Assembly (NCBI RefSeq): GCF_017352155.2 | Contig: NZ_CP071462.1 | Location: 3,224,001 to 3,288,000 of the forward strand | Length of the DNA: 64,000 bases | Reading direction: 5' to 3' | Source: Haloterrigena alkaliphila | GTDB lineage: Archaea > Halobacteriota > Halobacteria > Halobacteriales > Natrialbaceae | Shown: piece after piece, positions 20,893-55,434 of the stretch | Position numbering within the stretch: position 1 is the first letter of the stretch | Layout: the number at the start of each line of letters is the position of its first letter | The notes under the pieces: generated by a model | What the model was told of the DNA's origin: nothing | What the model saw: the letters and a program-made list of their open reading frames with translations, nothing else | The model's database searches: none | Position numbers and translations under genes: made by a program

Positions 20893-22104
20893 ATGAACGC
20901 GCTCGAGATCGGCATGCGATTGACCGCCGGCGCGGTTCTCATCCTCCTGAACGCCTTTTTCGTCGCGATAGAGTTCGGTCTGACTCGGGCCCGCCAGTAT
21001 CCCGAATCGGACTTCGACACGCCGGGACTCCGCCGGGCCTGGGAGATGACCGACGACCTCGAGTTCTACCTGACGACCTGCCAGATCTGGATCTCGGGGA
21101 CGAGCATCGCGCTGGGGATCATCGCCGAACCGGGACTGGCGGCGCTGATCGAACCGGTCTTCGAAAACTCGCGGCTCGCGTCGATCGGCGCCGGCTCCCT
21201 GCTCGCGTTCGGGCTGATCAACCTGGTCCATCTCACTCACGGCGAACAGACGCCGACCTACCTCGGCGTCGAGCGTTCCAAACAGGTGTGTCGGTACGGC
21301 GCGCGACCGCTGTACTGGTTCGCGAAGGCGATCGCGCCGCTGATCAAATTCGGCGACTGGGTCGCCAAGGGGACGCTCGGGCTGTTCGGCGTCGAGATGA
21401 CCCAGTCGTGGACCGAGACCGAGACGGACGTCATCGAGTCGCGAGCGGAACTGCGCAATCGACTCGGGTCGGTCCTCGAGGAGGGTGATCTCCCGCCGGA
21501 GCGCCGCGAAGAGGTGATGAACGCGCTGCGAATCGGTGAGAAGCCGATCCGCGAGGTGATGGTGCCGGCCGAGAAGATCGTCGCGCTGTCGACGGCCGCC
21601 GATACCGAGGAGAACCTCCGACGGATGGCCGAGCGACCGCAGACGCGGTATCCGCTGGTCGGCGACTCGCTGACGGAATTCCGGGGAATCGTCTACACGC
21701 CGGTCCTCCTCGAGCACCGCGAGGACCTCGCTTCCGGCGAGATCGACTTCGCCGAACTGGCGGCGCCGCCGATTACGCTCGGGCCGGAGACGGGCGTCAG
21801 CGACGCGATCGATCGGTTCCAGCGGGAGAACCAGGAGCTTGCACTGGTGGTCGAGAACAGCGAGGAACGGAGTTCCTCGAGCAATCGAACGCAGTCCGAT
21901 GATAGCGAGGAACGGAGTTCCTCGAGCAATCGAACGCAGTCCGATGATAGCGAGGGACAACGTCCCTCGAGGGGTCGACCGCAGTCCGACGACGAGGTGA
22001 TCGGATTGGTGACCGTCACCGACCTCCTCGAGGCGGTGATGGGCGACGTCGAGGACCCGCTCGATCAGGGCGTGGTCGATACGGGCGAGGTCGACGACGT
22101 CTGA
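20893..22104 (+). CDS. CNNM/CorC-family membrane protein with in-frame repeat insertion in its second CBS domain
   Basis: The 403-aa protein has an N-terminal CNNM (DUF21) transmembrane domain (about residues 1-170, with FVAIEFGLTRAR and LINLVHLTHGEQTPTYL) and two CBS motifs (about 205-330 and 330-395). Family members are linked to Mg2+ or Na+ transport and to ion homeostasis. The second CBS motif is interrupted: after LALVVEN (about residue 322) come 45 residues of Ser/Arg/Asp-rich sequence encoded by three 45-bp repeat units (21859-21993), then the normal EVIGLVTVTDLLEAVMGD resumes. No frame is lost. The start ATG gives a hydrophobic N-terminus directly. Confidence 0.85.
   Translation: MNALEIGMRLTAGAVLILLNAFFVAIEFGLTRARQYPESDFDTPGLRRAWEMTDDLEFYLTTCQIWISGTSIALGIIAEPGLAALIEPVFENSRLASIGAGSLLAFGLINLVHLTHGEQTPTYLGVERSKQVCRYGARPLYWFAKAIAPLIKFGDWVAKGTLGLFGVEMTQSWTETETDVIESRAELRNRLGSVLEEGDLPPERREEVMNALRIGEKPIREVMVPAEKIVALSTAADTEENLRRMAERPQTRYPLVGDSLTEFRGIVYTPVLLEHREDLASGEIDFAELAAPPITLGPETGVSDAIDRFQRENQELALVVENSEERSSSSNRTQSDDSEERSSSSNRTQSDDSEGQRPSRGRPQSDDEVIGLVTVTDLLEAVMGDVEDPLDQGVVDTGEVDDV
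21859..21993 (+). repeat. Three tandem 45-bp palindromic repeat units inside the CNNM gene
   Basis: Units run 21859-21903, 21904-21948 and 21949-21993. The first two are identical. Each starts with a perfect hairpin: CGAGGAACGGAGTTCCTCG in units 1 and 2 (8-bp stem, 3-nt loop) and CGAGGGACAACGTCCCTCG in unit 3. In unit 3 both arms carry compensating changes, so the stem is kept. The unit length is a multiple of three, so the gene stays in frame. Confidence 0.9.
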
Positions 22105-39017: not shown

Positions 39018-39206
39018 GGTTCGCCACGGCGAACCACTCTCTGTTCGCGGACGGAGTCCGCTCACACGGCTCGAGGGACGCTCCGCGTCCCTCGCTGGGC
39101 GCAAAAACGTCCTCAGAAATCGAAGATTTCTGATGGGCCCGCGAGAGCGACGCTCTCGCGGACTTCGATGAAAAAGGCCGACGGCGAGGCCGAAGGCCGA
39201 GCCGTC
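39018..39206. repeat. Array of six short palindromes (hairpins)
   Basis: Perfect or near-perfect stems: GGTTCGCC/GGCGAACC (39018-39035); GCGGAC/GTCCGC (39047-39061, loop GGA); a 10-bp stem opening CGAGGGACGC (39072-39094, loop TCC); CAGAAATC/GATTTCTG (39114-39132, loop GAA); CGCGAGAGC/GCTCTCGCG (39140-39160, loop GAC); and GACGGC/GCCGTC (39180-39206) enclosing GGCCGAAGGCC. Five of the six have loops of two or three bases, like the hairpins inside the CNNM gene. Confidence 0.85.
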
Positions 39207-39250
39207 GATGAACCGCTCACTTCGTTCGCGGATGCTGGAAACGCTCCATG

Positions 39251-55213: not shown

Positions 55214-55326
55214 ACGGAGCGACGCACCACGGCGGGAGAAATAAAACGGGGGCCGGCGAGCGGACGGGAACCGTCTCCAAGCGGCTCCGAACCACACCAG
55301 TCGGTCGAAAGAGCCGCGAACGGTGT

Positions 55327-55434
55327 CATAGCGTCGGCGGTCCGATGCGACGCGGACGGTCTCACAGCGTCGGCGGCCCGGTACGCCGCGGGCGATGTCA
55401 CAGCGTCGGGGGCCCCGTGCGACGCGGCCGTCGC
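55327..55434. repeat. Three tandem 36-bp repeats
   Basis: Units start at 55327, 55363 and 55399 and follow the pattern CAYAGCGTCGGCGGYCC, then GCGACGCGG. Twelve codons per unit keep a reading frame. The third unit overlaps the stop codon (55398-55400) of the neighbouring gene and its last codons. Confidence 0.85.

Follow-up and report, generated by a model that had tools for sequence, protein, structure and literature searches.

The Rickettsia palindromic elements (RPEs) are 105-146 bp long and form a long stem-loop (PMC2229807), and they are described as losing repeat identity over time (PMC6649704). Wolbachia also carries coding palindromes (PMC2996958), and those of Methanocaldococcus jannaschii (Suyama, Lathe and Bork 2005), known here by citation alone, are cited in PMC2229807 and PMC2996958 as palindromic sequences with coding potential that are fused into genes. 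In nematomorph mitochondria, perfect inverted repeats of up to 284 bp are kept in coding sequence, and template switching has been proposed for them (PMC6649704). REPs are mainly intergenic, with some lying within ORFs (PMC3733652), and Haloquadratum walsbyi harbours the IS605-related PATEs, which are small, transposase-free and palindromic without inverted terminal repeats, one of them having a 52-bp form made of ends only (PMC3119063).

Here we analyse an array of in-frame repeats in Haloterrigena alkaliphila, at positions 21859-21993 of a 64,000-nucleotide stretch of contig NZ_CP071462.1 that we refer to as the window. We think it probable that the array is made up of three copies, in tandem, of a small non-autonomous repeat whose family spans the haloarchaea as a class. 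The initial annotation had likened it to the RPEs and held that such elements are not well described for archaea. The likeness is one of look and behaviour and does not extend to membership. As with the coding palindromes of Rickettsia and Wolbachia, copies are dispersed, lie in frame in unrelated conserved proteins and also occur outside genes (PMC2229807, PMC2996958), but the haloarchaeal unit is 45 bp with two short hairpins rather than one long stem-loop, its arms change yet stay complementary where RPE repeats decay, and the family, being class-wide in archaea, is set apart from RPEs by description. The remark on archaea has to be qualified, since the M. jannaschii palindromes are archaeal too; as cited they belong to one species, whereas the present family spans a whole class. 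PATEs share the small size and lack of transposase, and one IS1341-type family carries a relative of the module; in contrast to PATEs, however, the 45-mers are mostly coding and have no recognised IS end, and in-frame insertion of PATEs does not figure in the parts of PMC3119063 drawn on here. REP/BIME elements resemble the units in their short stems and small loops, and multi-hairpin intergenic chains in our material contain a 49-nt relative, but REPs are mainly intergenic and 129 of our 133 copies are coding. The nematomorph palindromes differ in length and in being mitochondrial, and in the portions of PMC6649704 cited here they are not presented as dispersed copies of one element. Judged from its sequences, the haloarchaeal family is one of protein-coding palindromic elements, with dispersed in-frame copies and orthologues that have no insert. 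Coding palindromes were previously reported, as cited, from a few intracellular bacteria and one methanogen, and here they occur across a class of free-living archaea. A full-text search at the level of titles and abstract openings, with few subscription journals covered, found no literature on coding palindromes of haloarchaea.

The array lies in a plus-strand gene (20893-22104) for a CNNM/CorC-like protein of 403 aa, in which Pfam recognises a CNNM domain (residues 14-201) and a CBS domain (residues 292-322). It was scored by TRF as a tandem repeat (score 199) and encodes, in frame, residues 323-367 in the second CBS domain. The CBS match ends at residue 322, exactly where the insert begins, and in the alignment with structure 7cfk query residues 321 and 370 flank a segment that corresponds to chain residues 144 to 150, which places the insert in a turn only about five residues long. 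The Pfam boundary and the structural alignment thus bear out the earlier placement of the insert within the CBS domain, and sequence and TRF agree on the three in-frame 45-bp units, the first two identical, that had been proposed. Unit 1 (21859-21903) and unit 2 (21904-21948), both on the plus strand, encode the peptide SEERSSSSNRTQSDD and score 64.4 bits each with model R1; unit 3 (21949-21993, same strand) has diverged, carries two compensated pairs, encodes SEGQRPSRGRPQSDD and scores 50.6 bits. Five matches to a palindrome-plus-CTCGAG pattern (at most 3 mismatches) were found in the window, all within the array, with 0.31 expected.

The unit had been read as a single 45-bp palindrome. It is indeed palindromic, but one palindrome per unit is ruled out by the alignment, in which each unit consists of two adjacent hairpins. 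The layout is a first hairpin, H1, of eight pairs with a 3-nt loop, an AGCA joint, and a second hairpin, H2, of seven pairs with a 3-nt loop, the last codon usually being GAC. The commonest loops are GAA in H1 and GCA in H2, closed by C-G; DNA mini-hairpins of the type C(GNA)G are unusually stable. In the array, H1 occupies 21861-21879, 21906-21924 and 21951-21969 on the plus strand and reads CGAGGAAC-GGA-GTTCCTCG in units 1 and 2, whereas H2, at 21884-21900, 21929-21945 and 21974-21990, reads ATCGAAC-GCA-GTCCGAT in those two units, with one A-C mismatch. The compensated changes noted earlier for both arms of the third unit are present, with an A-T pair replaced by G-C in H1 and another at the base of H2; the palindrome is nevertheless not fully kept, H2 being imperfect in all three units and having two mismatches in unit 3.

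A search for the unit elsewhere in the same genome, in genes and in intergenic DNA, had been suggested as a check and recovered it at nine places (11 matches at E <= 0.001). Seven of these places, counting the CNNM gene itself, are genic and in frame, and two are intergenic and of a 49-nt form; the other in-frame hosts are a CoA-disulfide-reductase-like protein, a periplasmic-binding-type protein, a sulfatase, a HerA-like ATPase and two histidine kinases. In the taxonomic family of the host, a DNA pattern running from the end of H1 to H2 (at most 3 mismatches) matched 54 of 125 genomes and 17 of 29 genera, and the reversed pattern, used as a control, matched nothing in those 125 genomes. The covariance model matched all six genomes of the genus and, at E <= 1e-4, 286 of 391 genomes and 67 of 86 genera of the class, which is a minimum, as scoring covered 16 candidates in each genome. 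Among 148 genomes sampled from the phylum 15 matched, all 15 within the same order, and no sampled genome outside that order did so. When one genome for each of 84,980 species was scanned for an exact 27-mer, six stretches came up, all haloarchaeal (Halapricum, Halovivax, two in Natrinema and two in Halorussus), and a single genome, G314, holds 47 matches at E <= 0.001. At the DNA level near-identical 45-nt units are found in unrelated genes, and the ten host proteins scanned with Pfam fall into nine different families. With regard to a virus as vector, phages gave no match and an exact 23-mer was absent from viral contigs. Rfam, applied to 15 loci with non-coding, antisense or doubtful copies, reported only a tRNA near one copy.

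The counts that follow refer to a set of 133 45-nt copies in 61 site clusters, composed of 80 pattern hits and 53 of 71 covariance-model matches. The other 18 matches were dropped, 11 as further tandem units of loci already counted and seven for their length or context (L189 and L178 in frame; L184, L191, L175 and L176 non-coding; L179 ambiguous). Two of the three window units are in the set, the second one forming a separate site cluster. For gene calling we used a custom codon-usage caller that had been trained on the window, and the counts for G314 were the same after retraining on G314 loci. All of these counts refer to the loci collected.

In this set, 129 copies and 57 site clusters lie sense and in frame of a called gene, and none of the 133 copies is antisense or in another frame. 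The four copies called intergenic are an upper count, because two of them (L230 and L232) were so called though the canonical peptide is open there. The peptide read in this frame is S-E/A/V-x-R-S-x-S-S-x-R-T-Q-S-D/G-D. Its translation is strongly implied by the open frame, by codon use and by RefSeq CDS WP_222912708.1, for a CNNM-type protein of Natrinema sp. SYSU A 869, which reads through one copy. Besides 45 nt, coding variants of 48, 51, 54 and 57 nt occur, all multiples of three, and the non-coding relatives are 47 or 49 nt long. Twenty weaker matches of other lengths in the genus are distributed as 12 beginning sense in frame, six intergenic, one antisense and one in another frame; L246 and L249 among the 12 hit a stop inside the unit, and L247, L248 and L251, of 50 or 53 nt, have indistinct ends. 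Of the 47 matches in G314, 40 were read, giving 34 sense in frame, four antisense and two intergenic copies, with codon boundaries kept in all 38 genic ones. The four antisense hosts are identified by Pfam as a DUF7117 protein, an M24 peptidase, a DJ-1/PfpI protein and a class I lysyl-tRNA synthetase, and Pfam found no family in the sense frames of the same four copies; orientation is therefore strongly but not absolutely fixed. The last of these loci (L412) represents an antisense, codon-aligned insert in an essential enzyme.

The codon to the left of the unit is GAC at 36 of the 61 sites, compared with 6.9% of codons. A GAC target alone cannot give the observed frame, since only 33% of the GAC triplets on either strand of the window's genes are sense and in frame; the frame thus rests on assumed selection. 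Target-site duplication was considered in view of the frequency of GAC on both sides of the unit and was rejected, as L078 and L137 have no left GAC and one site is filled in three registers; no consistent duplication was seen at the sites compared. In the N-box loop of histidine kinases (L228, L231, L188, L182, L218 and L220) tandem 45-bp units SVEHGSTSSRTQSGD are present, and the H1 left arm of these units coincides with native-looking N-box codons GTG GAA CAC. The histidine kinase N-box may be the source of the family or a homology-driven target of it.

Two findings had been named beforehand as speaking against the proposal, an insertion common to orthologues in distant genera and absence of the unit from the rest of the genome; neither was obtained. 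The protein was matched in 57 of 61 relatives, and at the array site none of 28 aligned orthologues (L036-L063) has the unit, 25 showing a plain turn and three other short additions. A single unit is present at the same position in six other CNNM genes from five other genomes. Empty orthologues are 346-371 aa long, and lengths rise in steps of 15 residues (358, 373 and, in the window, 403 aa); in further comparisons empty and filled proteins measure 412 vs 427 and 146 vs 161 aa. In the CNNM gene tree the window gene is the only filled one in its group of ten. One second CNNM gene (L097, G004:C1:2298000-2301500), with a unit at the same CBS position, matches piecewise in different frames and is apparently broken.

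Comparison of filled and empty sites in other genes gave precise boundaries. The filled beta-CASP nuclease gene L093 differs from two empty genes of the same genus (L259 and L260) by a clean 45-nt gap with native flanks at 94% DNA identity, and a filled DUF302 gene (L133) differs by a clean 45-nt gap from 12 listed empty genes at 77-89% identity, one of which belongs to the genome of the window itself. At the nuclease site the unit occurs in three registers (V|, VD| and VDD|) around a GAC GAC run, with different stem arms. In G033 (L264) this shared site holds a shorter, decayed-looking insert, which may be a remnant of the unit. Gene trees need at least four state changes for DUF302, at least five for the nuclease and at least four for CNNM; these are quick single-gene trees, and their strongly supported branches force only one, four and two changes, respectively. 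Repeated gain and loss of units at the same sites is our best reading of these data.

Distances between copies were calculated for 121 of the 133, with the long-stem form starting with GAG excluded. Their mean was 0.123 for the same site across genomes, 0.265 within a genome and 0.235 for unrelated copies, and in G314 the within-genome distance was 0.301 vs 0.305 between genomes. Copies that share a genome resemble each other no more than copies from different genomes do, and recent genome-specific bursts are not supported. What remains is either a class-wide insertion pool, or old sites with allele loss and exchange, or fast rewriting of the arms. The likeness at the same site also fits old insertions combined with frequent loss and allele exchange by recombination. 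A rival account has a single ancient insertion per site in early haloarchaea and no current mobility, the patchiness being produced by homologous exchange of alleles and by precise deletion, in which the hairpins would assist slippage between short GAC repeats. The close same-site copies and the lack of within-genome likeness speak for it, GAC is common on both sides of the unit, and stem arms at the DUF302 site are common to families f1 and f5. Against this, the flanks of the filled beta-CASP gene in G102 are those native to its genus right up to the insertion point while its two nearest relatives are empty, and the three registers and different arms at that site suggest several insertions. 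We regard ancient insertion as a serious contender, though a doubtful one.

A different origin is raised by relatives of the unit near transposons. Double-hairpin relatives of 47 nt lie on the strand opposite to tnpB at L191:1537-1583, L184:1568-1614, L234:1010-1056 and L237:947-993. The L191 variant is about 40 nt after tnpB and that of L184 about 200 nt from a TnpB match, and L234 and L237 are placed in the same IS1341-type family by shared right-end sequence (81-120 nt). IS1341/IS605 TnpB elements might accordingly be where the module comes from, their right end (omegaRNA region) having given rise to a PATE-type miniature moved by their TnpA, a reading helped by the same linker and end in the right-end hairpin variant of this one family, by the lack of a regular target duplication and by the IS605-end-related PATEs described for Haloquadratum (PMC3119063). 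The variant was present, however, at only one of 30 TnpB loci scanned, and other right ends in the genus look different, so that the module may have passed into the IS and not out of it. Y1_Tnp occurs in three of the six genus genomes and the element in all six, which counts against a Y1 enzyme as the mover. On this balance, descent from TnpB elements appears unlikely.

Covariation between the arms was scored on 63 distinct copies with at least five of the eight H1 pairs, taken from 80 rows, from which the covariance model was also built; the filter favours H1, and the search pattern has the H1 left arm outside it and H2 inside it. The score was 0.293, compared with 0.103 (sd 0.008) after shuffling and at most 0.063 with slid partners. 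Double changes were seen in eight of the 15 pairs, with 105 double-change cells vs nine one-sided ones. In two of the most variable pairs, both in H1 (columns 5-19 and 8-16), codon position 2 is paired with codon position 1, so both partners change the amino acid while pairing stays; the residues that covary are E/A/V with S/A/T and G/E/A/V with P/S/A/T. Of 121 copies, 91 have a perfect H1, and 22 different perfect arm pairs are represented among them. For G314, 34 of the 35 copies have a fully paired H2, made of 11 distinct perfect arm pairs, and H1 is fully paired in 14 of 35 when all eight pairs are counted.

Covariation of this strength, in units that lie in the sense strand of genes, would also be expected if the hairpins acted in RNA, through selection for mRNA structure that serves stability, translation pausing or excision. 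The 1665 cells of 111 distinct copies comprise 1596 Watson-Crick pairs, 14 G-T, 30 A-C and 25 others; G-T on the sense strand is thus rarer than its mirror, and there is no excess of RNA wobble. One-sided changes are few, the inserts are optional in the same gene and also occur antisense and in non-coding DNA, and the clear coding copies come in multiples of three, which translation needs and excision does not. We consider a role in RNA quite improbable, and maintenance of the palindromes at the DNA level is the best reading. Repeated convergence on a useful polar linker peptide, with no transfer of DNA, is scarcely credible: the peptide is hydrophilic and sits in a turn of CNNM, but near-identical 45-nt DNA recurs in unrelated genes and the double amino-acid-changing substitutions preserve base pairing and not the peptide, so that this candidate is contradicted by the stem covariation.

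Taken as a whole, the data are probably best explained by a mobile coding double-hairpin module whose frame is kept by selection and whose stems are kept at the DNA level. The clean gaps with native flanks, the several registers and the lack of a regular target duplication would favour single-strand routes, which leave no duplication behind. We infer that the module enters and leaves genes as single-stranded DNA without regular target duplication, either by hairpin transposition with a Y1/HUH-type enzyme acting in trans or by slippage at the replication fork with template switching. Entry would be most often directly after a GAC codon in a surface turn, and purifying selection would then preserve a hydrophilic frame, tolerable as a loop to a halophilic protein; for the host protein the insert is probably close to neutral. 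The stems could stay complementary through repair of imperfect arms from each other, or because only good DNA hairpins stay mobile, and tandem duplication would then yield arrays such as that in CNNM. The four antisense copies in G314, the imperfect H2 of all three window units, the patchy occurrence of Y1_Tnp and the lack of within-genome likeness speak against this account. We entertain, more tentatively, a stronger form of this account, in which a codon-aligned process is still placing double DNA hairpins in haloarchaeal genes and continually rewrites both arms together by template switching or hairpin transposition, with DNA structure driving correlated loop changes across the class and with a TnpB-linked source. 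If this were true, DNA secondary structure and not protein function would drive correlated changes even in essential proteins, and the presence of the module in intergenic chains and in the IS1341/TnpB right end would tie the coding copies to an origin in a mobile element or omegaRNA.

The paired substitutions that alter two amino acids at once offer a clean example of protein sequence being steered by DNA structure. The family also accounts for 15-residue indels and for SSSRTQSDD-like loops, which would otherwise lead annotation and structural work astray. Some of the archaea that carry it are genetically tractable, and the family offers filled and empty alleles that are nearly identical; gain and loss of the unit, its effect on the protein and the upkeep of its stems are therefore directly measurable.

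Elsewhere in the window, a weak non-coding double-hairpin match of uncertain relation lies at 39056-39096 on the minus strand (R1 22.9 bits, E 0.0028 in the window). The chain that contains it (39050-39250, minus strand) is intergenic and consists of small, perfect, short-looped hairpins, and similar intergenic hairpin chains hold 49-nt relatives at L233, L236, L241 and L175. The window has another tandem repeat at 55315-55427, of 36 bp in 3.1 copies (TRF score 149).
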